From contig DYIT01000034.1 in assembly GCA_020723505.1 (NCBI GenBank), positions 1 through 39,034 on the forward strand: a stretch of 39,034 nucleotides of DNA, in the 5' to 3' direction. The notes under the pieces were generated by a model, which was not told where the DNA came from, did no database searches, and saw only the letters and a program-made list of their open reading frames with translations. The translations under genes and the position numbers were made by a program. The stretch comes from Candidatus Kuenenia stuttgartensis. Its GTDB lineage: Bacteria; Planctomycetota; JAKEIC01; DYIT01. Position 1 is the first letter of the stretch. Each line of letters starts with the position of its first letter. Below, in pieces: positions 1,158 through 37,237 of this stretch.

Positions 1158-1286
1158 ATAACCCGGACGAGCCGGAACCAAATAAGAATGTATAATCAGG
1201 CTGTCCGGGTTATATCACGCGCTTCGCGCGTGTCTTACCACAAATCTTTTCAATTATTACGAGAATCTTTTCATTAAGTGACTATC
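1158..1286 (+). repeat. Interspersed double-hairpin repeat, copy 1 (full length)
   Basis: Arm ATAACCCGGACGAGCC (1158-1173) pairs with GGCTGTCCGGGTTAT (1199-1213), with one base missing from the right arm. The fixed second hairpin CACGCGC-TTC-GCGCGTG follows at 1216-1232. An AT-rich tail then ends in CATTAAGTGACTATC (1272-1286), identical to the end of copy 6. From the last GTG of hairpin 2 to this end, copies 1 and 6 are both 57 nt and align without gaps. The tail contains the stop codon (reverse strand, 1282-1284) of the HAD phosphatase gene. The element lies in the gap between the 3' end of that gene and the start of the leftward exported protein gene. Terminator-like structure without a U-tract, or a mobile repeat. 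Confidence 0.85.
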
Positions 1287-1929
1287 CTTCCGCCCCGTCG
1301 CGCCCGGCTTCCTCGACCCTCACCAGGCACCCGGACGGGACAATGCTCCCGGCGTCAATACCCTCGATTATCCCGGCGAGCATCGGGAGGACCGCGATTC
1401 TGTAGTGGTACCTCGTTCTCGCCCGCGGAGGATTCCCGTTCGTAAGGAACACAGCAAAGGCTCCGGCAGCGAGCCCGGACTCGGTGTCGAACGCGAAATC
1501 GCCCACGACCAGAATTTCCTCGACCATGACACCCATTTCGCCCGCGAGCGCGATTATCTGGGCGGGTGAGGGCTTCACCGGGCCGTCATCCCTGGTCTTC
1601 ATCCAGCCGAAAGCCAGGCCGTGTTTTTGGAGGATGAGACCCGCGCTACGGCGGGAATTCCTGGTGCAGACGGCGGCCGATATCCCCCGGGACGCGAGGA
1701 ATCCCATAATCTCCCGGACGCCCTCGTTGAGTTCGGAATTTTCGACGGCCTCGCTTTCGAATTCCTCGAGCATCGCGAATTTGGAGGCCCTCTGCTCCTC
1801 CGGCAGGGCGAGAATCTGCTCGAGCACCGGGCCCGACGGCGAAAGCCCGAGACGTCTCCGGATGACTGCGAAATCGAGGAAAGGCTTCGTGAGAGTTCCG
1901 TCCAGGTCGAATATCACGGCTTTTATCAT
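1282..1929 (-). CDS. HAD-superfamily phosphatase (phosphoglycolate phosphatase-like)
   Basis: A 215-residue protein beginning MIKAVIFDLDGTLTK. It has the four HAD motifs: DLDGT with the nucleophile Asp at about residue 8, CTRNS (motif II), Lys in VKPSP (motif III) and GDFAFDTESG (motif IV). A small helical cap lies between motifs I and II, as in phosphoglycolate phosphatase and beta-phosphoglucomutase-like enzymes. It should hydrolyse a small phosphate ester; the substrate cannot be read from sequence. Its ATG overlaps the TGA of the upstream sigma-54 activator by four bases (1926-1929), so translation is coupled and the two probably work in one circuit. A longer open frame extends rightward to 3309 but is only a shadow of the activator gene. 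The stop codon comes from the tail of repeat copy 1, so the C-terminus may differ from its relatives. Confidence 0.9.
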   Translation of the reverse strand: MIKAVIFDLDGTLTKPFLDFAVIRRRLGLSPSGPVLEQILALPEEQRASKFAMLEEFESEAVENSELNEGVREIMGFLASRGISAAVCTRNSRRSAGLILQKHGLAFGWMKTRDDGPVKPSPAQIIALAGEMGVMVEEILVVGDFAFDTESGLAAGAFAVFLTNGNPPRARTRYHYRIAVLPMLAGIIEGIDAGSIVPSGCLVRVEEAGRDGAEG

Positions 1930-3785
1930 GAGTCTTTCACAATACCGTATTCCTCGATTTTCTTGTTGAGCGTGGGCCAGGAGATGTCGAGGATTCTGGC
2001 AGCTTCGCCCTTCTTGAATCCCGTGTGATTGAGCGCCGCGATGATGGCTCTCTTCTCCGCTTCTTTCATCGTCATGACTTCCATGCCGCCCTGCGGAGCG
2101 CAGGACGCCGCCTCCCCCGGGACCGGTATCAGCTCGGGTCCGATAGTCCTGCTCCTGCTCAGCACCACGGCCCGCTCGATGACGTTCTCGAGCTCCCTCA
2201 CGTTTCCGGGCCAGGAATAGAGCCCGAACCTGGACAGGGCTTCGGGGGCGAATCCGTCCGCCGGCCTGCCGGTCTTGGCCGCGCATTTCTTCAGGAAATG
2301 CTCGGCCAAGGGGACTATGTCCTCCTGCCTTTTCCTGAGGGGCGGGATTTCGATTGCGACGACGCTCAGCCTGTAGTAGAGGTCCGCCCTGAATCCGCCC
2401 GATTCGACGCAGGCCTTGAGGTCGCGGTTCGTGGCGGCTAACAGGCGGAGGTCCACGTCCACCGGAACCGTGCCTCCGACCCTGTAGAACGCCTTGTCCT
2501 GTATCGCCCTGAGCAGCTTCGCCTGCACCTCGGGAGCCATCTCGCCGATTTCGTCCAGGAACAGCGTGCCTCCGTCCGCGAGCTCGAACATGCCCGGCTT
2601 GCGCCTGTCCGCTCCGGTGAAGGCCCCCTTCTCGTGGCCGAAAAGCTCGCTCTCGAGAAGCGACCCGACCAGCGCCGCGCAGTTGACCGGGATGAAGGGT
2701 TTCGACCGCCGGAAGCTCTCGTTGTGTATCAGCCTGGCAATCAGCTCCTTGCCCGTGCCCGTCTCGCCGCAGATCAGCACCGTGGAGTCGGTCCCGGCCA
2801 CGCGCTTCGCGGTCTCGACGGCGTCCAGGAAGGAGGGGGATTTCCCGACTAGCTCCGATCCGCCGGTCAGCACCTTCTCGAGATTCCTCGCATGCTGGGA
2901 GAGCATGGAGAACTTCCGGGCGTTCCTGATTGCCTGCGCCGCCTGCTCGGTGAACGCCGCGGCCATGCGGAGGTCCCGGTCGGTGAAGGGCGCCGCTTCC
3001 CCGGTGCGGTCGAGATAGACAAGCGCGGCGACCTTGCCCGCCTCGGCGACCGGTACGCACACCGCCGTGGACACCCCCTGGTTTATTATGCTCTCCCTGC
3101 CCTGGAAGACGGGGTCCCTCGCGGAGTCGGAGATGAGGAGGGCCTTGCCGGCGGTCACGACCTCGCCGATGATGGCCCTGCTCAGGATGAAGCGGGATCC
3201 CCCGGACCTCGTCGCGCTCCTCACCGCGAGAAGCTCCACTTCCCCGCTCTTCGACGCGGCAAGCACCGCGGCCCTGTCGCCGCCAACGTGCTTGAGCAGC
3301 GCCTCGCATAGCCGGTCCATGACCTCCTCGGGGTCCAGCGACTGCGTCACCATGGACTGGATTTCGATGGCTTTCCGGAGAATCTCCGCGTCCACGGACC
3401 CGGGCTTGCCATCGGAGAGCGAGCAGTCGGAGGCTTCGACGGTGGACTTGACCTTGAGGTCGTCGCCTGAACCGACGATGACGGTCTCCTTTGATCCCGG
3501 GCTTTGCGCATGGAAGGAGAATCTGACCGACCCGACGACGATTTCATCGCCGTCGGACAGGGCGGATTTCGCCGTTTTCCTGCCGTTCACGTACGTGCCA
3601 TTGGAGGATTTGAGGTCTTCGATTCCGAATCCGCCTCCTTCGCGCCTGATTTCGGCGTGCCTGCGGGACGAAGTTTCGTCAAGAATCCGGACGGCGTTGT
3701 CCTCGCCCCTGCCGATGGTCGTCGAGTCGCCGAGGAGGTACTCCGAGCAGTTGGTCTTGCCTTCAATCACACGCAGAACGGCCAT
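1926..3785 (-). CDS. FHA-GAF sigma-54-dependent transcriptional activator
   Basis: From the chosen start (MAVLRVIEG) the protein is 619 residues. Domains in order: FHA (about 1-90) with GR at 25-26, SSRRH at 39-43 and NGT at 62-64, which binds phosphothreonine peptides; GAF (about 150-290), a small-ligand or redox sensor; AAA+ (about 310-550) with Walker A GETGTGK (340-346), the sigma-54 contact loop GAFTGA (387-392) and Walker B TLFLDEIGE (407-415); Fis-type helix-turn-helix at about 580-616. There is no receiver domain, so input should come from Ser/Thr phosphorylation through FHA and a ligand through GAF, not from a histidine kinase. The frame stays open to an ATG at 3917, but that ATG lies in the loop of a terminator-like hairpin and the extra 44 residues are unlike the family; 3785 starts right at the FHA fold. 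Neither start has a strong ribosome-binding site. It is coupled to the HAD phosphatase by an ATGA overlap. Confidence 0.93.
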   Translation of the reverse strand: MAVLRVIEGKTNCSEYLLGDSTTIGRGEDNAVRILDETSSRRHAEIRREGGGFGIEDLKSSNGTYVNGRKTAKSALSDGDEIVVGSVRFSFHAQSPGSKETVIVGSGDDLKVKSTVEASDCSLSDGKPGSVDAEILRKAIEIQSMVTQSLDPEEVMDRLCEALLKHVGGDRAAVLAASKSGEVELLAVRSATRSGGSRFILSRAIIGEVVTAGKALLISDSARDPVFQGRESIINQGVSTAVCVPVAEAGKVAALVYLDRTGEAAPFTDRDLRMAAAFTEQAAQAIRNARKFSMLSQHARNLEKVLTGGSELVGKSPSFLDAVETAKRVAGTDSTVLICGETGTGKELIARLIHNESFRRSKPFIPVNCAALVGSLLESELFGHEKGAFTGADRRKPGMFELADGGTLFLDEIGEMAPEVQAKLLRAIQDKAFYRVGGTVPVDVDLRLLAATNRDLKACVESGGFRADLYYRLSVVAIEIPPLRKRQEDIVPLAEHFLKKCAAKTGRPADGFAPEALSRFGLYSWPGNVRELENVIERAVVLSRSRTIGPELIPVPGEAASCAPQGGMEVMTMKEAEKRAIIAALNHTGFKKGEAARILDISWPTLNKKIEEYGIVKDS

Positions 3786-3900
3786 TGCATCCGCCGAAAT
3801 CAGGGAATCCGGGCGGCCTTCCCCGGCCCGCCCAATACCGGACATGAACATATCGGGCCATGGCTTCCATTGCAAGGATTTGCCCGCATGCGACAAAGCA

Positions 3901-3936
3901 AAAGCCGCAGGCTTCATGCCGGCGGCTTTCGTTTTT
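3901..3936 (+). terminator. Rho-independent-type terminator between divergent genes
   Basis: AAAGCCGCAGGC (3901-3912), loop TTCAT, GCCGGCGGCTTT (3918-3929), then CG and five T. The stem is 12 bp with one mismatch. On the plus strand it would end transcripts running antisense to the sigma-54 activator gene and so insulate the ECF sigma gene at 3984. On the minus strand the same bases would lie in the leader of the activator, followed by TTTTGCTTT, so it could also act as an attenuator there. Confidence 0.65.
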
Positions 3937-3983
3937 ATTGAAACCCATTGATTGTCCCGCTTGTAGTATCATAGCGGGCAGCA

Positions 3984-4526
3984 ATGAGCCTTCCTGAACC
4001 CAGATCGGAGGTTGTTGAAAGGGCGCGGCGGGGCGACCCGCAGGCGTTCGGCGAGATTGTGCGAATTTACGAGCGGATGGTCTACAACTTCGCCTTCAGG
4101 ATGTCATTCAACAGGGAAGACGCGATCGACATGACGCAGGAGGTGTTCCTGAGGCTGTTCCGGAACTTCGGCAAGTTCGAGCCGTCGCGCGGGTTCGGAG
4201 CGTGGTTCATGAGGCTCGCGGTGAACGTGTGCATCAACGAGCGCCGCGGCAGGACCCGGAGGTCCTCGCTGGTCCAGGCCGATTCGGCCGAGTGCGAATC
4301 CAGGCCGGCCGCGACCGCTGAAATCGGGAAGGACCGTATTCTCAGGGCGGTGGCGGACCTGAATCCGTCGTACAGGGCCGTGGTGATGCTGAGATACATC
4401 GAGGACCTGTCTTACGGCGAAGTCGGACGGATACTCGGCCTTCCCGAGGGGACGGTGAAGAACAGGCTTTTCCGCGCGAGGGAAGTGCTGAGGGCCAGGC
4501 TCGAGAAAGTCGGGGTGGACGGATGA
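3984..4526 (+). CDS. ECF (group IV) RNA polymerase sigma factor
   Basis: 180 residues with the two ECF domains. Sigma-2 (about 13-87) contains DAIDMTQEVFLRLFRNF, the core-binding and -10-melting region. Sigma-4 (about 115-172) contains LSYGEVGRILGLPEGTVKNR, the helix-turn-helix that reads the -35 element. A short linker separates them and there is no C-terminal extension. It should direct RNA polymerase to a small stress or envelope regulon. Its TGA overlaps the ATG of a zinc-finger anti-sigma factor, a classical sigma/anti-sigma pair, followed by a membrane protein. Upstream, CCCGC (3956-3960) and GCGGG (3974-3978) form a small inverted repeat around TATCAT, possibly a regulatory site, but I could not identify an autoregulatory promoter with confidence. 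Confidence 0.95.
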   Translation: MSLPEPRSEVVERARRGDPQAFGEIVRIYERMVYNFAFRMSFNREDAIDMTQEVFLRLFRNFGKFEPSRGFGAWFMRLAVNVCINERRGRTRRSSLVQADSAECESRPAATAEIGKDRILRAVADLNPSYRAVVMLRYIEDLSYGEVGRILGLPEGTVKNRLFRAREVLRARLEKVGVDG

Positions 4527-5131
4527 GAAGCGCATGCGGAAGGGGATCGGACGCGCAGGAGTACTTCGACGGCGCAATGGACGCGGAGAAGTCGCGGGAA
4601 TTCCGCCTCCACCTCGAAGGCTGCCCCGGGTGCAGGGCCAGGATCGAGGGGTACGGGGCAATCGGAGCGGCGCTCTCGGATTTGAATCCAGGCCCGGTGC
4701 CTGCGGTCCTGCACGAAAGGCTCATGGGCATCGTGCCTGTTGCGGCTCCCCGGCGCGTGAGAATCTGGGCGGCGGCAGCCCTGCTTGCGGCGTCTTCCGT
4801 GCTGTTCTGGCTCATGTTCATGCCGTTCTCCGCCGGGACCGGCATGCCGAATCCCGGGGACGGGGGCCTGCTTTCGCCGGTGCGGGAGCTGAACAGGATC
4901 GGCGGAATGGTCGGGGAGAACGTGGAATCGGTCGCGTCGAGCGTCAGGGATTTCGCCGAGGTCGACCTGGACATCGGCGCGGCAGTGCCGCTCGAAGGGG
5001 GAACGCTCGCAGCGGTCTTCGCGGCGATGGTAGCCGCGACAGCGTTCGTGAACGCGGCCGCGTACAGGAGATACAGGGCGGCAGCCAGAGGGCCTGCCGC
5101 CGGCGGAATGACTGAAAGGAGAACCACATGA
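4523..5131 (+). CDS. Membrane anti-sigma factor with HCC zinc-finger domain
   Basis: 202 residues. The N-terminus has the zinc-binding anti-sigma signature H30-x3-C34-x2-C37 (HLEGCPGC), which clamps ECF sigma factors. A transmembrane segment follows at about 80-102 (IWAAAALLAASSVLFWLMFM), then an extracytoplasmic region with amphipathic helices, then a second hydrophobic segment at about 161-181. Two membrane spans put both ends in the cytoplasm, unlike single-span RsiW-type factors. It overlaps the sigma gene upstream (ATGA, 4523-4526) and the next gene downstream (ATGA, 5128-5131), so the three are translated as a unit. It should hold the sigma factor inactive at the membrane until an envelope signal; whether release is by proteolysis or by zinc or redox change cannot be told. 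Confidence 0.88.
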   Translation: MRSACGRGSDAQEYFDGAMDAEKSREFRLHLEGCPGCRARIEGYGAIGAALSDLNPGPVPAVLHERLMGIVPVAAPRRVRIWAAAALLAASSVLFWLMFMPFSAGTGMPNPGDGGLLSPVRELNRIGGMVGENVESVASSVRDFAEVDLDIGAAVPLEGGTLAAVFAAMVAATAFVNAAAYRRYRAAARGPAAGGMTERRTT

Positions 5132-5973
5132 AAACTGCGATGATCGTTGTCGCGCTGGTCCCCGCGATGCTGGTGGCGTCCGTCTTTTTCGGCGGAATCG
5201 CGCTTGCCGACTCGCAGGCGAAGGGCGTTCCGGCAATAGGCCTCGAGTCCGGCGACTCCCCGGCAGCGGACGGGGAAAAGGCCCAGCCCGAAAAGGCGGC
5301 CGAACCTGTTCCGCCCGGGAAGAAGGACGGCGACGCGGACCGGAAGGACAAGGACCAGGCTCCGGGACTTGACCGGTCCGGCGAGGATGGCAGCGGGAAG
5401 CAGTTCATGATTCGTCACAGGAAGGAACTCGAGGGCGCGGTAGGGGCAATCGTCGGCATGGCGTTCATCCTGATGTCGGGCGTCGCGCTCTTCGCGCTCC
5501 AGTTCCTCATGCTGATTACGTTCCCCGCCGGCGTGGAGCGCATCAGGACATCCATCGAGGAGAAGAGGCTGTTCTCCTTCGTGCTCGGGCTCGTGAACTC
5601 GGTCTTCTTGCTGCTGCTCATCGGAGTGCTCGGCAAGGCGGGCGGGCCCGCGGGGGGATTCGCGGTGCTCTTCCTGTTCGCGCTCATATTCCTCGCGTTC
5701 GTCGGGCTAGTCGGACGCGCAAGGCAAATCGGAGGCAAGGCGGCGGCTGCCGCCGGATTCAATCCCAATCCCGCGCTGAGCCTGCTCATGGGATGGGGGA
5801 TTGTGTTCTTCGTGGGGATCATCCCGGTCGTCGGATGGGTCATAGCCGCATACTGGTGCGTATCCGGCGTCGGCGGCGTGGTTTTGAGCCTGTTCCCGGG
5901 CCAGGGCAAGGGTAACACCGCTGTGAAAATCGAGCCCAGGGACGATTTCGAGAGCCCGGTGGTGAAAGTGTAG
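5128..5973 (+). CDS. Multi-span membrane protein, third gene of the sigma/anti-sigma operon
   Basis: 281 residues. A signal peptide (about 1-27, cleavage near ALA) leads to a 70-residue hydrophilic linker rich in Lys, Asp, Pro and Gly. Four or five hydrophobic segments follow: about 104-131, 148-168, 176-196 and 217-256, the last long enough for two passes. A cytoplasm-like segment RIRTSIEEKR lies between the first two. The C-terminus is charged. I do not recognise a family; the hydrophobic half loosely resembles the membrane domain of some bactofilin-associated proteins, without the bactofilin part. The start has a strong ribosome-binding site (AAAGGAG) and overlaps the anti-sigma stop. Its place in the operon suggests a sensor or a target of the sigma factor. 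Confidence 0.8.
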   Translation: MKTAMIVVALVPAMLVASVFFGGIALADSQAKGVPAIGLESGDSPAADGEKAQPEKAAEPVPPGKKDGDADRKDKDQAPGLDRSGEDGSGKQFMIRHRKELEGAVGAIVGMAFILMSGVALFALQFLMLITFPAGVERIRTSIEEKRLFSFVLGLVNSVFLLLLIGVLGKAGGPAGGFAVLFLFALIFLAFVGLVGRARQIGGKAAAAAGFNPNPALSLLMGWGIVFFVGIIPVVGWVIAAYWCVSGVGGVVLSLFPGQGKGNTAVKIEPRDDFESPVVKV

Positions 5974-6296
5974 AAGCTGTTCTCAAGCGGGAGTCCAAGG
6001 CCGAAGGTCACAGGAAGTGCCGAGGGTCGGGGATTGGGGGGACCGCAGGCGTTGGCCGTGACACGGAAGCCGGGAACAGGCCGGGTTCCGCACGAAGCAC
6101 CTGGCCTCGCGCTTCTTGTGGAATAAGCAAATCCATCCCCGGACCACCCGGCCATCCTGCTCACTCTCCGCTCCGCCCCCCTGCGCGCACGACTCTTCAC
6201 CGCTGATATTTTCCCAGCCCATGGCGCTGAAAACCAAGAATGCGCTATAATTCATCCATTCATTTAATCCAGGCATCTCGAACATGGAGGGATGGA
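5974..6296. other. Intergenic region with promoter for the lipoprotein gene
   Basis: GC-rich for the first 200 bases, with small inverted repeats such as GGAAC/GTTCC around 6080 but no T-tract after them, so no clear terminator for the membrane protein. The last 60 bases are AT-rich and carry the promoter listed separately. No gene was found here. Confidence 0.4.
6246..6251 (+). promoter_or_regulatory. Putative -10 box (TATAAT) for the HEXXH lipoprotein gene
   Basis: A perfect TATAAT lies 45 bases before the ATG at 6297, in an AT-rich patch. A matching -35 is not evident at 16-18 bp spacing (GGCGCT region). The predicted start of transcription is near 6258 and would give a leader of about 40 bases. 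Confidence 0.5.
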
Positions 6297-8264: not shown

Positions 8265-8265
8265 C

Positions 8266-9773: not shown

Positions 9774-9786
9774 AAGGAGTCCGGTA

Positions 9787-11701: not shown

Positions 11702-11758
11702 ATGACACGGACGAGCCGGAACCAGACAGGTTTTATTGTTCCGGCTTGTCCGTGTCAT
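11702..11758 (+). repeat. Interspersed hairpin repeat, copy 2 (long stem only)
   Basis: Two 21-base arms (11702-11722 and 11738-11758) pair over their whole length with one G-U, loop of 15 bases. The core of the arm reads ACACGGACGAGCCGGAAC. The base pair that is C:G in copies 1, 4 and 6 and G:C in copies 3 and 5 is A:T here, so pairing is kept while the sequence changes. There is no CACGCGC second hairpin after it. It sits three bases after the nitroreductase stop. Confidence 0.85.
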
Positions 11759-13572: not shown

Positions 13573-13624
13573 ATAACGCGGACGAGCCCTGAGTTCGTAT
13601 CCGCCATCGGCTCGTCCGCGTTAT
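13573..13624 (+). repeat. Interspersed hairpin repeat, copy 3 (stem only)
   Basis: ATAACGCGGACGAGCC (13573-13588) and GGCTCGTCCGCGTTAT (13609-13624) are perfect 16-bp complements with a 20-base loop. The ACGC/GCGT pair shows the G:C variant of the co-varying position. The second fixed hairpin is replaced by a different one (13629-13678). Confidence 0.85.
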
Positions 13625-13628
13625 ATTC

Positions 13629-13678
13629 AGCCTGAATTTTCGCGCGAAGCTTCGTTTAATTGCGCGAAAATACAGGCT
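13629..13678. terminator. 17-bp hairpin between convergent genes
   Basis: AGCCTGAATTTTCGCGC (13629-13645) pairs with GCGCGAAAATACAGGCT (13662-13678) with a single mismatch; loop 16 bases. It overlaps the stop codon (13677-13679, reverse strand) of the kelch-type lipoprotein gene and lies after the truncated PP-loop gene, so it can serve as a bidirectional terminator. No clean T-tract. Confidence 0.55.
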
Positions 13679-15140
13679 ATGGCGCCGTATTGACCCAAAC
13701 GTCGGCAGTGGCGACGCCCGTGTTGGCGTCCGCTCCCGCGATCACGAAGAAGCGGGGGCCGCCGCCGGTCGGCGAAATCGGGCTCATGGCCGATCCGCAG
13801 TTGTAGACATGCGCGCCGATGTCGTTCAGCCCGTTCCAGGAGCCGAACGTCCCGTCCGTCTGGATGTTGCATCCCCTCAATTCCGAGCTCGTCCCGCCGT
13901 AAGCCCCTTCGGCTACAATGACCTGGCCGAACGAGTTCCACACGAGGTGCTTCATCCTCTCCTTGGAGAGCGCCGTCACCGGGCTCCAGGTCCCAATCGC
14001 GCCGGAGACGAGCTGCGCCATGTAGCATTCGCCTATGGCGTTAGTGTCGCTGCTGCTGTTGGGGTCGGTGGAAGCCGCGTTCTCGCCGCCGGTCGTGTAG
14101 ATTCTCCCTCCGAAAGCGAAAGCGGCGAAGGAGCCCATGGCCTGGGGCATCGTCCTGGCCTGCAGGCTGAAGGGGGTCAGGGTCCCGTCGGAGTTCACGT
14201 CGGCGGCATAGATGGTATCCCGCGGATTGCCGGATCCCAGATACCCGCCCATCACGAAAAGCCTTCCCCTGTAGACGATTGCGCTGTGGCCGATGTGCGC
14301 GTCGGGCAGGGAACTCGTCGAAGAGGTCCAGGTCCCGAAAATCGCCCCGGTTGAGAGGTTCACGGCCGCGCTGTATACCGATGCGGTTCCGCCCGGCGTG
14401 TCGGTTGCGGTGTTCTGGCCGCCTATCACGTACAGATAGGCCGACCCGGCCGCCACCGGGCTGTTGCCGGAGTGCGCCGCGGCCATGGCGTGGAAGGCGC
14501 GGGCAGAAGGGAGATCCCCGAAACTGGACCACGACGCGGAGGACGAGAATGTCGCCCCGGACACCGTGAGCGTGAGGAAGCTCACCGTGGCCCTGTTGGT
14601 CGGCGTCCCGCCCGATGTCTGGCCTCCTGAAACGTACAAGTAGGCCTGCGTGTCGGTGTATGGGACCGTTTCGGCCCTAAGCCCCCTCAGGGCCTCGGGA
14701 TAGTCGGGCACGTCCGAGTTGCTGTTGCTCCACACGAGGTTGGAGGGGCTGAAGGGAGGTACGGAGACGATGTCGAGGTCCACGCCGTTGCTCGTGCCGT
14801 TCGCCGTTATGACGTAGACGGTCACGGTTCCGCCGGGGGTCAGGCCGGACGGCACGGTCACGATGATTGAATCCTCGGTCCAGCCTGCAGCCGACGGAAC
14901 GACGTCCGTGGGCACGGTGCTTTCAACGAACCTGACCGTGCCGGGGGACGAGAGGAAATCCGTGCCGTTGATTTCAATCGCCGTGCTCACCGGCGACTTT
15001 GGATCCGCGCATGAATTGATGTTGCTTATCGACGGCAGCGGAGGGGGAGGCGGCGGGTCGTCGTCGTCCTCGGAGCTGCAGCCGGCCATAATGGCCGCGG
15101 GAGCCAGCACGGCAAGCGCTATCAGGGCATATCTCTTCAT
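13677..15140 (-). CDS. Kelch-type beta-propeller lipoprotein with TIG domain
   Basis: 487 residues. Lipoprotein signal: MKRYALIALAVLAPAA then IMAGC (lipid-bearing Cys about 20), next an Asp4-Pro6 spacer. An IPT/TIG Ig-like domain follows (about 36-125; ISNINSCADPKSP through VTVPSGLTPGGTVTVYV). From about 130 there are six or so kelch-like repeats, each with a strand ending in V-GG (AYLYVSGGQ, AYLYVIGGQ, RLFVMGGYL, RIYTTGGEN) and a following xxWxS or xTWxP segment, which should close a beta-propeller. The start has GAGGAG upstream. It is probably displayed on the outer membrane or periplasmic face and binds a ligand or glycan; no catalytic motif is evident. It is transcribed away from the large Ig-like protein next door. 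Confidence 0.85.
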   Translation of the reverse strand: MKRYALIALAVLAPAAIMAGCSSEDDDDPPPPPPLPSISNINSCADPKSPVSTAIEINGTDFLSSPGTVRFVESTVPTDVVPSAAGWTEDSIIVTVPSGLTPGGTVTVYVITANGTSNGVDLDIVSVPPFSPSNLVWSNSNSDVPDYPEALRGLRAETVPYTDTQAYLYVSGGQTSGGTPTNRATVSFLTLTVSGATFSSSASWSSFGDLPSARAFHAMAAAHSGNSPVAAGSAYLYVIGGQNTATDTPGGTASVYSAAVNLSTGAIFGTWTSSTSSLPDAHIGHSAIVYRGRLFVMGGYLGSGNPRDTIYAADVNSDGTLTPFSLQARTMPQAMGSFAAFAFGGRIYTTGGENAASTDPNSSSDTNAIGECYMAQLVSGAIGTWSPVTALSKERMKHLVWNSFGQVIVAEGAYGGTSSELRGCNIQTDGTFGSWNGLNDIGAHVYNCGSAMSPISPTGGGPRFFVIAGADANTGVATADVWVNTAP

Positions 15141-17917: not shown

Positions 17918-18040
17918 ATAACCCGGACGAGCCGGAAGCAGACGGGGATGAAGTGGGGCTCGTCCGGGTTATATCACGCGCTTCGCGCGTGCCTTTTGGC
18001 ACATAATTTCAATAGAATCAATTATAAGTTACTAGTGTCA
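17918..18040 (+). repeat. Interspersed double-hairpin repeat, copy 4
   Basis: ATAACCCGGACGAGCC (17918-17933) and GGCTCGTCCGGGTTAT (17957-17972) pair perfectly over 16 bp. The fixed second hairpin CACGCGCTTCGCGCGTG is at 17975-17991. The last GTG of that hairpin also starts a third one, GTGCC-TTTT-GGCAC (17989-18002), so the two cannot form fully at once. The tail (to about 18040, ATTATAAGTTACTAGTGTC) resembles the conserved tail of copies 1 and 6 but is diverged and a few bases shorter. Confidence 0.85.
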
Positions 18041-18115
18041 ATTCTTGACGGCCCCTGAGCGGCAATAGCGCTGATTTGGAGAAGGCGGCCGGGCGGGGAA
18101 TTCCGGAATGACCTT

Positions 18116-28924: not shown

Positions 28925-29053
28925 GATCACTCCCCCGCCAAGCTCCGGAACGCAGAAACGAATGACCGCCTGGACAAGAATTTAACATATCCCGTTCACG
29001 ACTGCATCCGGGGATGAGGGAGAAACAGGGAAATGGCGGCTGTAGATTGCCCC

Positions 29054-30418: not shown

Positions 30419-30474
30419 GCCAGCTGAAATCATCTCAATCAGATTGAATATCATGTGAATCAGGCTCGAAAGTC

Positions 30475-30492
30475 CTGCGCTGATTTGCGCAG
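30475..30492 (-). terminator. Hairpin between tonB and the TPR gene
   Basis: CTGCGC (30475-30480), TGATTT, GCGCAG (30487-30492): a perfect 6-bp GC stem 12 bases after the tonB stop, with only a short U run after it. It could be an attenuator or an mRNA processing or stability structure inside the operon. Confidence 0.35.
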
Positions 30493-30503
30493 AAAGACAG
30501 CGC

Positions 30504-31211
30504 TCATTTCTCGAATCTCACTGAAATCCTGCACCAGAAGGAAACCGGCTTGCCGCCCCTGGTGCCGGGCTTGAATCTCCACTGCCGGACGGCCTTGCGG
30601 GCCGCGTCCGCGAAATCCTCGTCGCCGGTCCACTTGAGGACCACGATATCCTCGGGCACGCCCTCGGCCGTGACGAGGAACTTGAGGGTCACCGATCCGG
30701 TCACTCCCCTGTCGGCTGCCCATGTCGGGTATTCGGGCTTCACCCTGACCGCAACCTCCGGCGGGTCGTCGAGTTCCTGGCTCGAGACCGGGTTCCCGGA
30801 AGGCCGGGGGACTGCGGGCTTGTCCTCGATTACCGGGGGCGCGTCGAAGACGTCGGGCCTGAAGAGCTCGGACGGGACCGGAGCGGAGATGCCGGCCATG
30901 AAAGGGGCCTCGACGGGCGTGAGGCGCGACTCGATTCGTGCGCCGGCGCGGGGAGCCGCAGCGCGTGTCTCCTGCCGCTGCGCCTTCTCCCTGGGCTCGG
31001 TCCTGCCGGCCGGCGCGGGAGCCGCGGTCTTCCTCGGGGGCGTAGGAGCCTCGCGGATCTTCCTGACGGCGAACAGCCTCGGCGCCTTGTTATCGAGGGG
31101 CCTTGCCTGCTCCCGCCCTCCAAGGTTCATGCCACCCATGAAGAGGAAGATTGCCGCGTTGACGAGGACGGCGGCGGCGAACGCCGCGGCGAACCGGAGG
31201 AACCCGCCCAT
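30504..31211 (-). CDS. tonB: TonB energy-transducing protein
   Basis: 235 residues from the ATG at 31211 (AAGGG eight bases upstream; one base after the exbD stop). N-terminal membrane anchor at about 3-25 (FLRFAAAFAAAVLVNAAIFLF), then a Pro/Arg/Ala-rich periplasmic span (about 40-150), and a TonB C-terminal domain (about 155-235): VRVKPEYPTWAADRGVTGSV, LKFLVTAEG, DFADAARKAVRQWRFKPG. It contacts TonB boxes of outer-membrane receptors and passes the proton-driven force from ExbBD. No TonB-dependent receptor gene is in the window. Confidence 0.94.
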   Translation of the reverse strand: MGGFLRFAAAFAAAVLVNAAIFLFMGGMNLGGREQARPLDNKAPRLFAVRKIREAPTPPRKTAAPAPAGRTEPREKAQRQETRAAAPRAGARIESRLTPVEAPFMAGISAPVPSELFRPDVFDAPPVIEDKPAVPRPSGNPVSSQELDDPPEVAVRVKPEYPTWAADRGVTGSVTLKFLVTAEGVPEDIVVLKWTGDEDFADAARKAVRQWRFKPGTRGGKPVSFWCRISVRFEK

Positions 31212-31212
31212 G

Positions 31213-31632
31213 TCATTTCCCTTTCTCGGCGGCTGCCGCAATCGAGACGTTCCTCGCGCCTGCTAGGCCGCACTCGTCCATGACGTCTATCAGCGTCCCT
31301 GTGTCCGACCCCTTGTCGGCGATAATCACCACGGGCCTCATGCGGTCGCTCCTGAGCTGCTCGCGCACGAGCGTTGCCATCTCCGCGAGGGCCACGCGGC
31401 GGTTGTGCATGAAGATGCGGCCGTCCCTGGTGATGGAGACGAGGATGCTGTTCGATCCGAGCTCGGAGGCCGAGACGGCTTTCGGCCTCTTGACCTCCAC
31501 GCCGGTTTCCCGCGAGAAGCTCGTCGTGACGAGGAAGAAAATCAGGAGGAGAAAGACCATGTCGATGAGGGGGGCCATGTTGATTTCGGCCCCTCCGCCC
31601 TTCTTCCCGAGTTTGGAGGAAAGGTCAATCAC
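31213..31632 (-). CDS. exbD: ExbD/TolR-type proton-channel component
   Basis: About 139 residues from GTG 31632, chosen because GGAGAG precedes it by five bases and it overlaps the upstream stop by a few bases; ATG 31671 would add 13 residues deep in the exbB gene. One membrane span has the conserved Asp: INMAPLIDMVFLLLIFFLVT. The periplasmic domain follows (VEVKRPKA, ITRDGRIFMHNRRV, VVIIADKGSDTGTLIDVMDE). It forms the stator with ExbB and powers TonB with the proton gradient. Fourth gene of the operon. Confidence 0.93.
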   Translation of the reverse strand: MIDLSSKLGKKGGGAEINMAPLIDMVFLLLIFFLVTTSFSRETGVEVKRPKAVSASELGSNSILVSITRDGRIFMHNRRVALAEMATLVREQLRSDRMRPVVIIADKGSDTGTLIDVMDECGLAGARNVSIAAAAEKGK

Positions 31633-32224
31633 GGCGGCTCTCCGGGAAGAGGATTTCGCCCGCGCTTTCAATCGAAGCGTCTATCCAGGCCGAGGCGCGT
31701 TTTGCCATCCTTTCGAGAAATGCCCGCGCCAGCATGGCGGGGATGGCGGCCATGAGACCGGCTTCGGTGGTGATTAGGGCGAGGGAGATTCCCTCTGCCA
31801 TCGCCCGGGGATTTCCGGACCCGTGCGCCGCCATGGCGTCGAACGTGCAAATCATGCCCGAGACCGTGCCCAAAAGCCCGATGAGCGGCGCGGTGGCGGC
31901 GAGCCGGCCGATAGTCTCGATTCCGAGGCGGGACGCGGCCCTTGCGGAAAGCCGCAACTCCCACGCCGCGAGCTCGAAATCGGACTTCCTCCGCGGTCTC
32001 GACGCCGCGAGCGCCCTCGCGGCCGACGATGCAGGAAGCCCCGCGGCGTCAAGCGCCGCCATGGATGAAGCGAGCCGCTCGTGCGCTTTGCGGTTGCATG
32101 CGATGGAACGCCTCAGGAAAAGCCACCTCTCGATGATGATCACCCACGCGGCGAAGGATAAAGCCGCTATCGGAGCCATGAGCAGGCCTCCCTGGGCAAT
32201 CTTCTCCCATACCATCTCAATCAT
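31625..32224 (-). CDS. exbB: ExbB/TolQ-type proton-channel component
   Basis: 199 residues. The first membrane segment is LLMAPIAALSFAAWVIIIERW; the pair of membrane helices typical of MotA/TolQ/ExbB follows: TIGRLAATAPLIGLLGTVSGM, then MAEGISLALITTEAGLMAAIP. It lacks a large N-terminal domain, unlike the next gene upstream. It is the core ExbB, partner of ExbD just downstream. The ATG overlaps the stop of the TtpC-like gene by four bases, so translation is coupled. Confidence 0.93.
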   Translation of the reverse strand: MIEMVWEKIAQGGLLMAPIAALSFAAWVIIIERWLFLRRSIACNRKAHERLASSMAALDAAGLPASSAARALAASRPRRKSDFELAAWELRLSARAASRLGIETIGRLAATAPLIGLLGTVSGMICTFDAMAAHGSGNPRAMAEGISLALITTEAGLMAAIPAMLARAFLERMAKRASAWIDASIESAGEILFPESRRD

Positions 32225-33699
32225 GCGGATTCTCCTCCCTCGCCGGGATCACGATTCCGGGAGCAGAGGGAACTGACCATGGATGCGCCGGCTATCTCGA
32301 TGCGCTGCACGAGCGAAGTCGCCCTTGTCGAGAGCCAGGAATGGACGAGCATCACGGGGATGGCGATGATCAGGCCCACCTCGGTCGTGACGAGCGCCTC
32401 GGAAATCCCGCCCGAAAGAAGCCTGGGGTCGCCGGTTCCGAAAATCGTGATGACGTCGAATGTGGAAATCATCCCGGTCACGGTCCCGAGAAGCCCGAGA
32501 AGCGGAGCGACGACGGCCATCGCGGCGATTGCCGAGAGGAACCTCTCGAGCGACGCCATTTCGGCCGATGCGGCGGCCGTGAATGCGGCCTCGATCGCCC
32601 CCTGGCCGAGGCCGCGCGCGGCCATCCCGGCCCTGAGCGGCCTTGCCAGCGGGCCCCTGATAGGCTTGAGCCCGGCTTCCGCGGCCTCGACGTTCCCGGA
32701 CTTGAGGGGGAGAAGGACAGCCTTCTCTACAAGCGACGCATGAGGCCTGTTGAGGGCCAGGAACGCGAGCCTTTCGAGGATCATGAGCAGCGCGGCCAGG
32801 CCGGAAAGCAGAAGGGGTATCATCACCGGCCCGCCGCTGATGAGGAAGGTCGCAATGTCCTTTCCGCCGCCGAGCATTTCGGGCGGAAGGTCCATCGTGA
32901 CGTCCAGGGGCAGGCCGACCCGCCGATCCGGATTCCCGCACGCGTCCACGGCCTCAGACATCGTGCCCACGAGGCCCTCCTCGCCCTCCTTCCAGCTCCA
33001 GCCGGCCTTGTCGCCCGAGGACCTGAAAAGGAGCCCGGCCTGTTTCCGGTCCGCCGTCACGTATCCGCAGAAGATGCGGCCGAGCCTGAGCACGTCCGCC
33101 TCCTTCTGCTCACCGGAGTCGAGCAGCACCGGGCTGCGGAAGACTTCCGAGGACGAGCCGAGTTCGGCTTCCTCGGCCATGAGCCTGAAATAGCCGGAAA
33201 CGAGCGAAGCGGGGCTCGACCCCGCCCTGGCATCCGCATCGAGCCGGGACAGGAACGCAATCCTTGCGTCCCTTTCCGAATGGGGGACCGAGATTTCGAG
33301 GACGGTCTTCATCGACTCAATCCCCTGCGCCGCGAACGCTGCGAGCGCGTCGAGCTTCCTCCCCGATTCCTCCTCGACGCGGGCGATTTCCTCGCAGGAA
33401 GCGGCGAGTTCCGCGGCCTTCCGCTCCTGCGCTTCAATGGTCCCCGCGAGGGCCAGAATATCCCTCTCCAGCGCCTCGATTTCGGACCCCAGCGCAGCCT
33501 TGGCCGATTCGAACTCGGCTTCGGCCTTCTTCCAGTCCGCCCTCTCAGCGTCAAGCTCCGCGGCGGCTTCCGCGATTGCCCTGTCGATGGAGGCGTCCTC
33601 CGGCGTCTCCTCCGACGCCGCAGGCTGCGCGAGGCATGCAAAGACCAGCGCGGCCGAAGCCGCGACAATCAGGACCGTCCAGGGGGAAAACGCCTTCAT
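32221..33699 (-). CDS. TtpC-like protein: coiled-coil domain fused to an ExbB-type channel domain
   Basis: 492 residues. Signal sequence (VLIVAASAALVFACLAQPAA) followed by a long coiled coil (about 35-115, Ala/Glu/Lys-rich, EIEALERDILALAGTIEAQE) and a periplasmic DUF3450-like region (to about 285). A membrane segment comes at about 290-312 (IPLLLSGLAALLMILERLAF), then the ExbB pair (about 385-475): MAVVAPLLGLLGTVTGM and ISEALVTTEVGLIIAIPVML. This is the architecture of TtpC, the extra ExbB-like subunit of Vibrio TonB2 systems. It overlaps the DUF3450 gene upstream and exbB downstream (ATGA each). Confidence 0.9.
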   Translation of the reverse strand: MKAFSPWTVLIVAASAALVFACLAQPAASEETPEDASIDRAIAEAAAELDAERADWKKAEAEFESAKAALGSEIEALERDILALAGTIEAQERKAAELAASCEEIARVEEESGRKLDALAAFAAQGIESMKTVLEISVPHSERDARIAFLSRLDADARAGSSPASLVSGYFRLMAEEAELGSSSEVFRSPVLLDSGEQKEADVLRLGRIFCGYVTADRKQAGLLFRSSGDKAGWSWKEGEEGLVGTMSEAVDACGNPDRRVGLPLDVTMDLPPEMLGGGKDIATFLISGGPVMIPLLLSGLAALLMILERLAFLALNRPHASLVEKAVLLPLKSGNVEAAEAGLKPIRGPLARPLRAGMAARGLGQGAIEAAFTAAASAEMASLERFLSAIAAMAVVAPLLGLLGTVTGMISTFDVITIFGTGDPRLLSGGISEALVTTEVGLIIAIPVMLVHSWLSTRATSLVQRIEIAGASMVSSLCSRNRDPGEGGESA

Positions 33700-34646
33700 C
33701 TGTTCCCCCCCCTCCCGTCAGGCTTCCCGCCGGGGGGATTCGGATCCCCGGCGGTCGCCGGGGTCCTGACTATGCCGAGGTTTACCGGGAGCGTCAGAAT
33801 CGCCGGAGGGCGGCGCTTCTCGGCCATCTCGACCGCGTTCCGCAGCTTGAGCCTCGTGAGGTAGTCGAACCCTGATCTCCAGACGAAGCCGGGCCCGCCC
33901 TTGAGCCCGCCCTGGGCGTATTCGAGAATCCCCGCCTCGTCCCCGGTTTCGGTGACGAAAGCCATGTAGGCGAGGCCGATTCTCATGTACCTGGTCTTGG
34001 GCCGCTCGGAATCGATGGATATTCGTCCCTGGAAGGCGGAACTCGTCGCTCCCAGGGAAATCTCGTAGTCGAAAGCCCTCTGAAGCGAATTCGCGGACGC
34101 TAGCGGATCGGCAGCGGCGGCGCCGTCGCCGAACTCGGCGATGGGCTTAGCGCGCTCCTCGACTTCGAACGGAAATCCGTTCAGGACGAATCTCCTGATT
34201 CGGTCCGCCGCGGACTTCATCTCCGAAACGCAGGCCGCAATCCCGGCGTTCCTGAGATCGAGCGACTTCTTGAGGCCGGCTGCGTTCTCCTCGAGGCGTT
34301 TTTCCTTCTCCCTGTTCTCCTCGGCTGTCCTCCTTAGGGCGGCCAGCCTGAGTTCGAGTTCCCCCTTCCTCGCCTTGATTTCCGACAGCTTCCTCTGCCT
34401 CCCCTGAAGGTCGGACTGGTATCTGAGCCTGCCTTCCCTGAGCTCCCTGACCAGGGAAAGGAGCCTTGCCGTCTTGTCGGCGGCTTTCAGGACGCCGGGA
34501 GGCTTCTCTTCAGCAGCCCCCGGGGAGGGCGGGGCTTCCTCGGCATGCGTCGTTCCGGAGAGGAGGAATGCAAACAGGAGCAGCGCCGCGAACGCCTGCC
34601 GGGCGGCTCCAGATTCCATCCGCAATGAAAACGCCTGGAACTCCAA
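33696..34646 (-). CDS. DUF3450-family periplasmic coiled-coil protein, first gene of the TonB2-type operon
   Basis: About 316 residues from TTG 34646, chosen for the near-perfect GGAGGA seven bases upstream; ATG 34619 also gives a signal peptide, and ATG 34676 is far from any ribosome-binding site. Signal peptide (FAALLLFAFLLSGTTHA). Coiled coil at about 60-135 (LRYQSDLQGRQRKLSEIKA, LRRTAEENREKEKRLEENA). The second half is globular, with PFEVEERA, RMESG-free beta segments and RYMRIGLAYMAFVTETGDEA, as in DUF3450. In gammaproteobacteria this family lies directly before TtpC-ExbB2-ExbD2-TonB2. The first six genes of this operon keep that order, with ATGA overlaps at the two junctions after it. 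Confidence 0.88.
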   Translation of the reverse strand: MEFQAFSLRMESGAARQAFAALLLFAFLLSGTTHAEEAPPSPGAAEEKPPGVLKAADKTARLLSLVRELREGRLRYQSDLQGRQRKLSEIKARKGELELRLAALRRTAEENREKEKRLEENAAGLKKSLDLRNAGIAACVSEMKSAADRIRRFVLNGFPFEVEERAKPIAEFGDGAAAADPLASANSLQRAFDYEISLGATSSAFQGRISIDSERPKTRYMRIGLAYMAFVTETGDEAGILEYAQGGLKGGPGFVWRSGFDYLTRLKLRNAVEMAEKRRPPAILTLPVNLGIVRTPATAGDPNPPGGKPDGRGGNR

Positions 34647-34721
34647 GGATTTCCTCCAATCTTCAAAGCCTGTCATCCGACCATTCTATGTTACATTTTT
34701 CTTGCCGGTTTCCATAATCGG

Positions 34722-34749
34722 GCCAATCCTTATTTTGGCGGTTTTTTTT
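34722..34749 (+). terminator. Plus-strand terminator behind the TonB operon
   Basis: GCCAA (34722-34726), loop of eight, TTGGC (34735-34739), GG, then eight T (34742-34749). A short stem with a strong T-tract, 76 bases upstream of the DUF3450 start. On the plus strand it would stop transcripts antisense to the TonB operon before they reach the dodecin gene. Confidence 0.45.
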
Positions 34750-35072
34750 CCTTACCCCCGATTCCCGCGGAATCCAACAGGAAGGAGTCATGCCTCCTAA
34801 GCGCCAAGTCAACATTCAATATACGACCCCAAGACCCGACCCCAAGACCCGACGACCCCGCGACCCTGAAAAGTCGGGATGGAAACGCTCTCTGTGGGAG
34901 CCGCCGGAGTATTCCTGACACGGCAAGGCGGCGATGGAAAGACCTTTCTCTGCCGATTATTACGAGTTGTCGACCTGCCTACCATGCCTGTGCCGAGCAG
35001 GAGCACCTGGCGTCGCGGCGCAGACAGGCGCTACGCGTATGGCTCTTCATCGCTGCCGGCAGGGCAAACCTC

Positions 35073-35102
35073 TTGCCACCGCGGACCTGGTCGGGTTAGA
35101 AT
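35073..35102 (+). promoter_or_regulatory. Putative promoter for the dodecin gene
   Basis: TTGCCA (35073-35078), 18-base spacer, TAGAAT (35097-35102), 46 bases before the GTG start. The context CGGGTTAGAATCC is close to CGGGTAGAATTCC before the phosphofructokinase gene (37288-37300), so the -10 sequence may be the lineage's usual form. Confidence 0.45.
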
Positions 35103-35147
35103 CCCCGAGGACTTTTTTCTTTTACGCGTGCTGCGCAGGAGGTTCAT

Positions 35148-35360
35148 GTGAGCAACAGCGTGTACAAAATCATCGAGATCATCGGGACGAGCAAGGATTC
35201 CTGGGAAAAAGCCGCCGCTGCCGCGGTCGCCATGGCAGCGAAGAGCGTAAGGGACATGAGAATCGCCGAAGTCACCGAGTTCGACATGCAGATTGAAGAC
35301 GGGAAGGTGGTCAACTACAGGACGAAGCTCAAGGTCTCCTTCAAATACGAGGACAAATAA
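35148..35360 (+). CDS. Dodecin (flavin-storage protein)
   Basis: 70 residues from GTG 35148, with AGGAGG five bases upstream. VYKIIEIIGTSKDSWEKAAA is the dodecin N-terminus: a strand, then the SxxSWExA helix; IAEVTEFDMQIEDGKVVNYR is the second strand pair. Dodecamers of this fold bind flavins (riboflavin, FMN or FAD) or CoA and protect them from light or free-radical chemistry; which ligand is used here is not visible. Stand-alone gene with its own promoter; its TAA stop is part of the first arm of repeat copy 5. Confidence 0.93.
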   Translation: MSNSVYKIIEIIGTSKDSWEKAAAAAVAMAAKSVRDMRIAEVTEFDMQIEDGKVVNYRTKLKVSFKYEDK

Positions 35361-35430
35361 CGCGGACAAGCCGGAATGCGTGGTCTGAGATACGAGGCTT
35401 GTCCGCGTCATATCACGCGCTTCGCGCGTG
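35357..35430 (+). repeat. Interspersed double-hairpin repeat, copy 5
   Basis: ATAACGCGGACAAGCC (35357-35372) pairs with GGCTTGTCCGCGTCAT (35396-35411), one A-C mismatch. The fixed second hairpin CACGCGCTTCGCGCGTG is at 35414-35430. Two positions co-vary against copy 4 (ACGC/GCGT instead of ACCC/GGGT, and AAGCC/GGCTT instead of GAGCC/GGCTC). The dodecin stop codon TAA (35358-35360) is formed by the left arm. The conserved tail of copies 1 and 6 is absent. Confidence 0.88.
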
Positions 35431-35571
35431 CGAAGGGGACGATTCGGGTTCCCAACGACGTTTCTTATCCTCGCGGACAAGCCGGAGGATTCAGCGTTCT
35501 CAGCGGCGAAAAGGGATCCATCGATTTCCTGGATTGACGCTGAAGTGCGCGTGCCAGGATGCATCGTCAAG

Positions 35572-36141
35572 ATGAGTTTTCCAGCGGCGTTTTCACTGAA
35601 GCTTCCGGGCTGGGTTCGCAGGGCGTCGGAGGAATGCGGTGCAAGGGTCTCGGACGAGGAAATGGCGGCCTTCGCCGTCGAGCTCGCCATGCTCAACGTC
35701 GTGAAACGGGGGGGCGGCCCGTTCGGAGCGGCTGTTTTCGAGGCAGGCAGCGGCCGTCTGGTGTCCGCCGGAGTCAACATGGTCGTCGCAGGCGGATTCT
35801 CGGCGGCCCACGCGGAGATTCTCGCGATTTGTCTCGCCCAATCCGCCCTGGGGACCCACAGGCTCGATCTTAATCCGCCGCGCAGCCACGTGCTCGCCGC
35901 GTCGGCACAGCCATGCTCGATGTGCTTCGGCGCCCTGGCGTGGTCCGGGATAAGCAGGCTCGTGTGCGCGGCCAGGAGAAGCGACGTGGAGCGGATTGCC
36001 GGGTTCGACGAGGGCCCGATGCCCCGCAGATGGATCCGCGAGCTCGGAAAGCGCGGGATATCGGTGGGGACGGACGTCCTCAGGAAGCAGGCCTGCGAGG
36101 CGCTCAAGGCTTTCGCCGACTCCGGGGGGAAAGTGTACTAG
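35572..36141 (+). CDS. Nucleoside/guanine deaminase-like protein (CDA fold)
   Basis: 189 residues from ATG 35572; the frame is open upstream to a GTG in the repeat copy, but that region has no family homology. Zinc motifs: HAEIL (H80, E82) and PCSMC (C115, C118), with RGGGPFGAAVFEAG before them; this is the layout of guanine, cytosine and tRNA-adenosine deaminases. PRSHVLAASAQPCSMCFGAL and ALAWSGISRLVCA are typical. The order fits the guanine-deaminase/tRNA-deaminase branch; specificity is open. No clear ribosome-binding site at this ATG (AGGA lies 12 bases away). Monocistronic by spacing. Confidence 0.85.
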   Translation: MSFPAAFSLKLPGWVRRASEECGARVSDEEMAAFAVELAMLNVVKRGGGPFGAAVFEAGSGRLVSAGVNMVVAGGFSAAHAEILAICLAQSALGTHRLDLNPPRSHVLAASAQPCSMCFGALAWSGISRLVCAARRSDVERIAGFDEGPMPRRWIRELGKRGISVGTDVLRKQACEALKAFADSGGKVY

Positions 36142-36240
36142 TCGCTTGGTTGAGATTTCGAATTGGGGCCCTCTGGGGATTAATCTTGCCAGGCGCTGCG
36201 ATCCGGCATTCAATAGGGCCGGGTTCCGGGCTTTTTTCGG

Positions 36241-36744
36241 ATGCATGGAATGGAAGAAATCGACATCAGGTACGGGAAACCTCAGGACGCGGAGATCCTC
36301 GCTGGATTCAACATCTCTCTTGCGGACGAGACCGAACGGCTGAAGCTCGACCGCTCGATCGTTCTTTCCGGAGTGCGCGACCTGATGGCGTCCCCGGAGC
36401 ACGGCTTCTATCTCGTGGCCGAATCGGGGCAGGAAATCTCGGGTATGCTCATGGTCACGAGCGAATGGAGCGACTGGCGGGATGGAATCTACTGGTGGAT
36501 CCAGAGCCTTTACGTGAAGCCCAAGTTCCGCCGCAAGGGGGTATTCAGGGCGCTCTACGACCGCGTGAAGGACATGGCGTCTTCGAGGGGCGGAATCTGC
36601 GGGCTCAGGGTGTACGTCGACAAGAGGAACGCCAAGGCGCGCGAGACGTACGAGAGGCTCGGAATGAACAAGACCGGCTACGAGGTCTATGAGCATCTGT
36701 TCGCCTACAATGATTCCCCGGGCGGACACAGGAAAGGGTCGTGA
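36241..36744 (+). CDS. GNAT-family N-acetyltransferase
   Basis: 167 residues; ATG 36241 or, three codons later, ATG 36250 (MEEIDIRYG). IRYGKPQDAEILAGFN is the first strand and helix; IQSLYVKPKFRRKGVFRALY is the acetyl-CoA pyrophosphate-binding motif (V-x-P-x-x-R-x-x-G); LRVYVDKRNAKARETYERLG is the usual N-x-x-A-x-x-x-Y-x-x-x-G tail. It acetylates an amine or amino group of unknown substrate. The C-terminus is followed after 34 bases by the YkvA-like gene, possibly in one transcript. Confidence 0.9.
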   Translation: MHGMEEIDIRYGKPQDAEILAGFNISLADETERLKLDRSIVLSGVRDLMASPEHGFYLVAESGQEISGMLMVTSEWSDWRDGIYWWIQSLYVKPKFRRKGVFRALYDRVKDMASSRGGICGLRVYVDKRNAKARETYERLGMNKTGYEVYEHLFAYNDSPGGHRKGS

Positions 36745-36778
36745 TCCCCATGCCGGAGACGGGTCTTGGCCTTGAGGA

Positions 36779-37099
36779 ATGCGTTCCGCCGCCATGGATG
36801 CGAAATCGTTGATGAGTAGGCTTTCCGGGCTTGCGGATTCCGCAAGGACCGAGGTCGGCGCCCTCCGCCTTGCGTTGCGCCATCCCCGGACGCCCGTCTC
36901 GGCCAAGGTGTTCCTCGTCCTTGCCGTGATTTATGCGTTCCTGCCATTCGACCTCATTCCGGACTTCATCCCCGTTCTCGGGCAGCTCGACGACATCATC
37001 ATAATCCCGCTCCTTGCAGGCATTGGCCTTTGGCTCATACCTCGCGGGGTGATGGAGGAGTGCAGATTCAGAGCCGGCCTTACGCGGCGAAGGCTCTGA
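36779..37099 (+). CDS. YkvA/DUF1232 small membrane protein
   Basis: 106 residues from ATG 36779; ATG 36794 is an alternative. The DUF1232 signature is clear: HPRTPVSAKVFLVLAVIYAF then LPFDLIPDFIPVLGQLDD, an amphipathic pair with the conserved P-D-L-I-P-D-F-I-P and D-D. A second hydrophobic helix follows (IIIIPLLAGIGLWLIP). YkvA-like proteins are common small membrane-associated proteins with no proven function. Repeat copy 6 begins nine bases after the stop. Confidence 0.88.
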   Translation: MRSAAMDAKSLMSRLSGLADSARTEVGALRLALRHPRTPVSAKVFLVLAVIYAFLPFDLIPDFIPVLGQLDDIIIIPLLAGIGLWLIPRGVMEECRFRAGLTRRRL

Positions 37100-37107
37100 A
37101 TCAATCC

Positions 37108-37237
37108 ATAACCCGGACAAGCCGGAACCAAACAGCATTTGATGTTCCGGCATGTCCGGGTTATGTCACGCGCTTCGCGCGTGCCTGTCAGCAACTCCTT
37201 TCAACTTCTGCTGCAATCTCACCATTAAGTGACTATC
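37108..37237 (+). repeat. Interspersed double-hairpin repeat, copy 6 (full length)
   Basis: Two 21-base arms (37108-37128 and 37144-37164), one mismatch; the outer part is ATAACCCGGACAAGCC. The fixed second hairpin CACGCGCTTCGCGCGTG is at 37167-37183. The tail ends CATTAAGTGACTATC (37223-37237), identical to copy 1, and the 57 bases from the last GTG of hairpin 2 to this end align with copy 1 without gaps. It follows the YkvA-like gene. Confidence 0.88.

Follow-up and report, generated by a model that had tools for sequence, protein, structure and literature searches.

An undescribed family of interspersed palindromic repeats, probably spread by copying, in the genome of an uncultured planctomycete-like bacterium

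Contig DYIT01000034.1, 39,034 nucleotides of DNA assigned to Candidatus Kuenenia stuttgartensis, holds several copies of a hairpin whose stem begins with ATAAC and whose two arms change together from copy to copy. This stretch, hereafter the window, is an entire contig (C143) of a draft genome that comprises 4.95 Mb in 207 contigs and is 89% complete. The original prediction, made from the window alone, took the covariation as evidence for selection on the folded form, as RNA or as cruciform DNA, rather than on a DNA motif, and the locus thus raises the question of whether these hairpins are alike by virtue of their fold, of a DNA site that they provide, or of a shared origin by copying. Our analysis favors the last of these, in that the element is probably a lineage-specific, non-autonomous, interspersed palindromic repeat of the REP/ERIC/bcr kind that spread by copying; it has the appearance of a short repeat that was once mobile, of a type already familiar, and not of a new sort of RNA switch.

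Results

The repeat is far more abundant than chance would allow. With up to two mismatches allowed, the half-site ATAACNCGGACNAGCC was matched 236 + 238 times in the genome (474 half-sites), against 15 + 17 (32) for a reversed-pattern control, and 35 full hairpins are perfect. The covariance-model search that the original prediction had proposed bore out its expectation of further copies: a model built from 34 copies recognized 149 of the 150 candidates scored, which makes 149 a lower bound on the number of copies in the genome, while nothing was found in 12 genomes of the phylum, including the sole genome of the same order. When 1.16 Mb of the same genome, for the most part contiguous, was searched with a profile, 69 matches were returned, fragments included, with both arms present in 55; the copies are mostly single and lie on average about 17 kb apart, and scaling from this sample gives an estimated total of roughly 200-300 copies.

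Searches of 391 other genomes from the phylum, of 84,980 GTDB species genomes, of viral contigs and of phages did not recover the element, and a plasmid search gave a single match of 28 nt, in a Polaromonas plasmid. We found no other genome of the host's family, the nearest being the one genome of the same order. The host's phylum is probably Planctomycetota, judging from gene content (e.g. DUF1570) and from one protein whose better matches included a Candidatus Brocadiia MAG, at 49%. The repeat family is lineage-specific: of all the genomes searched, only that of a single uncultured bacterium has it. Several contigs end inside copies (C143, at the right end of the window, and also C132, C170, C174, C14 and C115), and it was probably the repeat that broke the assembly at these points.

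A full unit measures about 126 bp. It begins with a 56-nt hairpin that has a 16-bp stem (hairpin 1); after 2 nt comes a second hairpin (hairpin 2), either 17 or about 55 nt long, and then a tail of about 50 nt. The arms of hairpin 1 are ATAACCCGGACGAGCC and GGCTCGTCCGGGTTAT, enclosing a loop of usually 23-26 nt (overall range 14-26 nt), and hairpin 1 is close to 56 nt long in most copies; the tail runs CCTTACCGCAAATCTTTTCAATT...TTCATTAAGTGACTA. Many copies consist of hairpin 1 alone, and others retain only its outer arm. The ends are defined, usually with a C before ATAAC on one side (base -1 is C in 41 of 51 copies, with no conserved tetranucleotide ahead of ATAAC) and ...AAGTGACTA, the end of the full unit, on the other. 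These ends, ATAACCCGG and AAGTGACTA, are not inverted repeats of each other, and no target duplication was detected among the 12 copies that were usable for this comparison (shared flank length 1.17, against 0.96 +/- 0.35 when shuffled). A REP-like mini-hairpin within each arm (CCGG-ACGAG-CCGG) was considered and rejected, given that the changes at pair 6 are, by inspection, matched in the long stem and not in the mini-hairpin.

Hairpin 2 proved less uniform than had been supposed. In its short form it reads CACGCGC-TTC/TCC-GCGCGTG, and the supposedly invariant version with the TTC loop does stand 2 nt after hairpin 1 in the copies at 1158, 17918, 35357 and 37108, but elsewhere in the genome the loop can be TCC, ACC or GCC, and the arms can carry compensatory changes to CATGCGC/GCGCATG. 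About ten copies (L150, L151, L152 and L154-L160) have instead a long form, CACGCGCTCCGCCCTGAAGGAACGCGCTTCGCGTGTCCTTCAGGGCTCCGCGCGTG, of about 55 nt, and of these L150 and L151 carry an additional spacer of about 60 nt ahead of the tail. The short form with the TCC loop equals the long form minus the stretch between its two GCTCCGC repeats, and is therefore probably a slippage derivative of it.

Homology between copies extends through the loop and the tail despite unrelated flanks, which shows that they arose by copying. In full-length copies divergence from the consensus is 3-4% in the stems, 23% in the loop, 23-36% in the tail and about 60% in the flanks, and mean pairwise identity is about 0.25-0.28 in the flanks versus 0.92-0.93 in the stems. 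Both stems behave in this way (about 2-4% versus 21-36% in loop and tail). The ratio of stem to non-stem divergence is 0.20 for close pairs of copies and 0.08-0.14 for distant ones, making the stems 5-12 times more conserved than the loop and tail, and a search with the tail only, blind to the stems, found few copies that lacked hairpin 1. Thus the stems are conserved in sequence as well as in pairing, even in old copies such as that at 17918, which does not agree with the proposal that selection acts on the fold rather than on a DNA motif.

The stem covariation itself is genuine. Pair 6 is C:G, G:C or A:T and pair 12 is G:C, A:T or G-U, as originally claimed, and dozens of further copies show the same behavior. 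In the six originally reported window copies alone, pairing holds in 97.9% of stem cells, and two-sided changes are present in 6, versus 2.3 in shuffles; across 55 copies, 28 stem cells have a two-sided change with pairing retained, versus 5 in shuffles (maximum 13), and 76 have a change on one side only. The 34-copy alignment has 9 pairs changed on both sides versus 1.6 in shuffles, with lower values in slid controls; in all of these comparisons the shuffles do not preserve relatedness among copies. Many of the two-sided changes are common to several copies (five copies have C:G at pair 2, five have G:C at pair 3, three have G:C at pair 6, four have A:T at pair 12 and three have G:C at pair 13). 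They are thus as much a sign of subfamilies as of selection locus by locus, which weakens the inference from covariation to selection on the fold. The overall pattern is one of subfamilies plus private decay. Stem mismatches are nearly equally G-T (16) and A-C (20), both overall and by direction of transcription, so neither RNA strand is favored.

One subfamily has CAACCCGG...CCGGGTTG stems (L079:688-743, L076:15345-15400, L057:14144-14198, L081:3958-4014 and L096:3698-3754), and most of its members then carry GAGCAGTTGAGCAGTTGAACAGG, possibly a composite repeat in its own right.

The placement of the copies was analyzed with approximate gene calls from a simple codon-usage caller (773 genes, 83% coding). 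Fifty-one of 53 copies are intergenic, where random placement of 56-nt segments would give 16%, so the original expectation of copies mostly outside genes holds. All of the window copies originally listed do lie at or near gene 3' ends, but this is local to the window and not a genome-wide rule: copies occur in both orientations, and 31 of them lie in tandem gaps, 13 in divergent and 9 in convergent ones, where gap length alone would predict 30.8, 12.5 and 9.8 (P = 0.96). The count of orientation and stop-codon position, also proposed at the outset, did uncover one possible regularity. The ATAAC end is tentatively closer to gene edges than the tail end (in full copies the medians are 17 and 123 nt; Wilcoxon P = 0.02), and often lies on a stop codon or immediately ahead of a Shine-Dalgarno-like sequence, whereas the tail end does not lie at gene edges.

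In the window itself, the six copies originally reported, at 1158, 11702, 13573, 17918, 35357 and 37108, are all present on the plus strand, and a seventh, on the minus strand at the right end, had been missed. The copy at 1158-1284 is full length, with hairpin 1 at 1158-1213 (its 3' arm has a one-base deletion), hairpin 2 at 1216-1232 and a tail that runs to about 1284, ends in AAGTGACTA and touches the stop of the minus-strand gene at 1282-1929. The next two are hairpin 1 only: that at 11702-11758 begins 2 nt past a stop codon and is of the variant ATGACAC...GTGTCAT, its stem extended to 21 bp, and that at 13573-13624, of the variant ATAACGC...GCGTTAT, lies in a gap between convergent genes. 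The copy at 17918-18041 is full length, hairpin 1 (17918-17972) and hairpin 2 (17975-17991) both being perfect and the tail strongly diverged. At 35357-35430, hairpin 1 (35357-35411) has two compensated pairs and is followed by hairpin 2 (35414-35430) and no recognizable tail; the TAA within its ATAAC is the stop codon of the upstream gene, and a lone 5'-arm fragment, CGCGGACAAGCCGG, sits just downstream at 35470-35487 on the plus strand. The sixth copy, 37107-37235, is again full length, with an extended stem in hairpin 1 (37108-37164), hairpin 2 at 37167-37183 and a tail to 37235. The seventh, 38869-39034, is cut by the contig end and has a long hairpin 2 (about 38979-39033), an inserted spacer and a diverged tail (38869-38909). 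Contig C37 opens with 55 bases identical to those of this copy and then runs into hairpin 1, and therefore C143 and C37 probably join here.

Directly after the third copy, within 13627-13680, there is an unrelated GC-rich hairpin at about 13632-13675 with a 12-bp stem, TTTTCGCGCGAAGC...GCGCGAAAA, by the stop of the minus-strand gene at 13677-15140.

Discussion

Given that the hairpins are GC-rich and that the six copies first listed are near gene 3' ends, it was reasonable to consider that they might be intrinsic transcription terminators, similar by coincidence. This is very improbable: neither hairpin is followed by a T-tract, a scan gave no clear excess of terminator-like sites (19 versus 15.2), genome-wide placement has no 3'-end bias, and the similarity of loop and tail shows copying rather than convergence. 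A structured RNA in transcripts, whether a 3'-untranslated-region stabilizer, an attenuator or a leader, kept for its functional fold, would account for the compensatory changes in the stems, for the very stable folds (z -3.5 to -10.7) and for the frequent adjacency of hairpin 1 to a stop codon or to the Shine-Dalgarno region of a start. On the other hand, the copies lie in both orientations, the 13 of 53 in divergent gaps are what chance would give, G-U pairs are not commoner than A-C in either direction of transcription, and primary sequence is as conserved as pairing; we therefore consider an RNA function unlikely.

A DNA-level site, in which the stems are bound as duplex or cruciform by a chromosomal protein with a nucleoid, topoisomerase or repair role and the copies are kept for that reason, is also improbable in our view, if slightly less so than the RNA. 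It would explain placement independent of orientation, the symmetry of the mismatches, and the constraint on stem primary sequence in each copy, including old ones with decayed tails, but none of the other genomes searched contains the element, so it is not a conserved housekeeping site, and many copies have broken or half stems. No likelier is that a mobile repeat has been repurposed into a genome-wide set of some 200 DNA-level binding sites for an undescribed hairpin-binding protein of this lineage, such as a RAYT-like enzyme turned chromosomal factor, with both stem sequence and pairing constrained in each resident two-hairpin copy. Integron attC sites were also considered, but the ends are unlike RYYYAAC...GTTRRRY, the copies are dispersed, and no integrase match exceeded the TIGR02249 cut-off.

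For a repeat spread by copying, which we prefer, a unit of some 126 bp that comprises two hairpins and a tail, and is often reduced to hairpin 1, would have been copied repeatedly into intergenic DNA, moved in trans by an enzyme that recognizes the stems as a folded single-stranded DNA hairpin. The absence of target duplication and of inverted termini, together with the hairpins, fits a single-strand HUH mechanism, and the most plausible mover, which we name only tentatively, would be a RAYT-type Y1/HUH transposase whose gene lies at another place in the genome. There are nine matches to PF01797 (Y1_Tnp), and five of these nine proteins match the RAYT model NF047646 (E 9e-15 to 4e-20), under its curated cut-off. 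The stems of old copies would probably have been kept intact by a DNA- or hairpin-binding protein that still uses them, or by templated repair from arm to arm.

Three observations weigh against this interpretation. The stems of individual copies evolve slowly, which is unexpected for inert transposon relics; this slowness could owe something to selection on the copies now in place, to a need for recognition in the lineage of source elements, and to repair of one arm from the other. No near-identical, recent copies were present among the full-length copies compared, where the best pair is 94% identical and the median 77%. Finally, in the flanks of eight of the nine Y1_Tnp loci (about 1.5 kb in each direction, or as far as the contig extended) we found no RAYT-like gene with the element inside 1.5 kb, nor related hairpins, and the sole Y1 gene with a nearby copy, a single one, is a truncated IS200-like fragment. 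The genome is only 89% complete, so a REPtron may be missing from the draft. A parent transposon was also sought by a tail-only search of the 1.16 Mb, in which every clear tail was accompanied by other parts of the element.

Among the Y1 genes, L033:904-1896 (minus strand) encodes a RAYT-like transposase whose C-terminal part matches the C-terminal end of the DnaA model NF001154 (E 9e-6). Other interspersed repeats in the 1.16-Mb sample include GGATTCCGGCTTTCGCCGGAATGACG, CTGTGGGAGCCGCCG, ATTCCACACGAAGC...GCTTCGTGTGGAAT and CCCGGATAATTCACG; the genome holds several palindromic repeat families.

The element resembles REP and REPIN sequences, which are mobilized by RAYT (TnpA-REP), in being high-copy, intergenic, palindromic and species-specific, without target duplication, and in that the arms of its stems change in complementary fashion from copy to copy and between subfamilies; for REP stems, complementary mutations have already been reported (PMC2817692). 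REP hairpins carry an unpaired GTAG or CGTC tag at one end (PMC3733652, PMC8266576), and REPs are further characterized by a palindrome of 20-50 nt, inverted doublets, and a RAYT gene flanked by two inverted copies (PMC3733652, PMC8266576, PMC2817692). In contrast, the present element has a 56-nt hairpin with a 16-bp stem and a loop of about 24 nt, has no such tag, does not form the closely spaced inverted pairs of REPINs and BIMEs, flanks no RAYT gene at the loci scanned and is not biased away from divergent gaps. On tag, length, doublet pairing and RAYT flanking it is not a REP.

Many bacterial stem-loop families have been described, some with two adjacent stem-loops (e.g. Efa-1 and Pae-1; PMC2267715), and these and ERIC are similar to the present family as intergenic repeats of about 126-165 bp with a long palindrome and two adjacent stem-loops, limited to one lineage and with no known mover; here the order is a long hairpin, a short hairpin and an unpaired tail, and a sequence relation was searched for in Rfam only. 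The MITE-like bcr1-bcr3 of Bacillus cereus have conserved secondary structure and lie in untranslated regions and intergenic DNA (PMC3446304), and so share with our element a lineage-specific, interspersed distribution and a conserved fold, but it lacks terminal inverted repeats and target-site duplication and is therefore not a MITE. Non-autonomous elements derived from IS200/IS605 likewise have hairpins near their ends and no target duplication, in hosts that encode Y1 transposases, but a full-length parent with these ends was not found in the 1.16 Mb. The broad kind, interspersed bacterial palindromic repeats, accommodates the family on all counts, as it is high-copy, intergenic, stem-loop-forming, lineage-specific and homologous past the stem, and more untagged palindromic families are likely (PMC3733652). 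The original prediction did not recognize the family, and it is indeed unnamed in Rfam, which at gathering and permissive thresholds gave only chance microRNA-like matches; the family is undescribed, but its kind is well known.

These data add an undescribed and very abundant palindromic repeat family to what appears to be an uncultured planctomycete-like lineage. They also illustrate that covariation among dispersed copies need not imply a functional RNA and can reflect the subfamilies of a copying element, while the slow evolution of the stems in individual old copies can be measured and suggests that repeats of this sort may not be inert.

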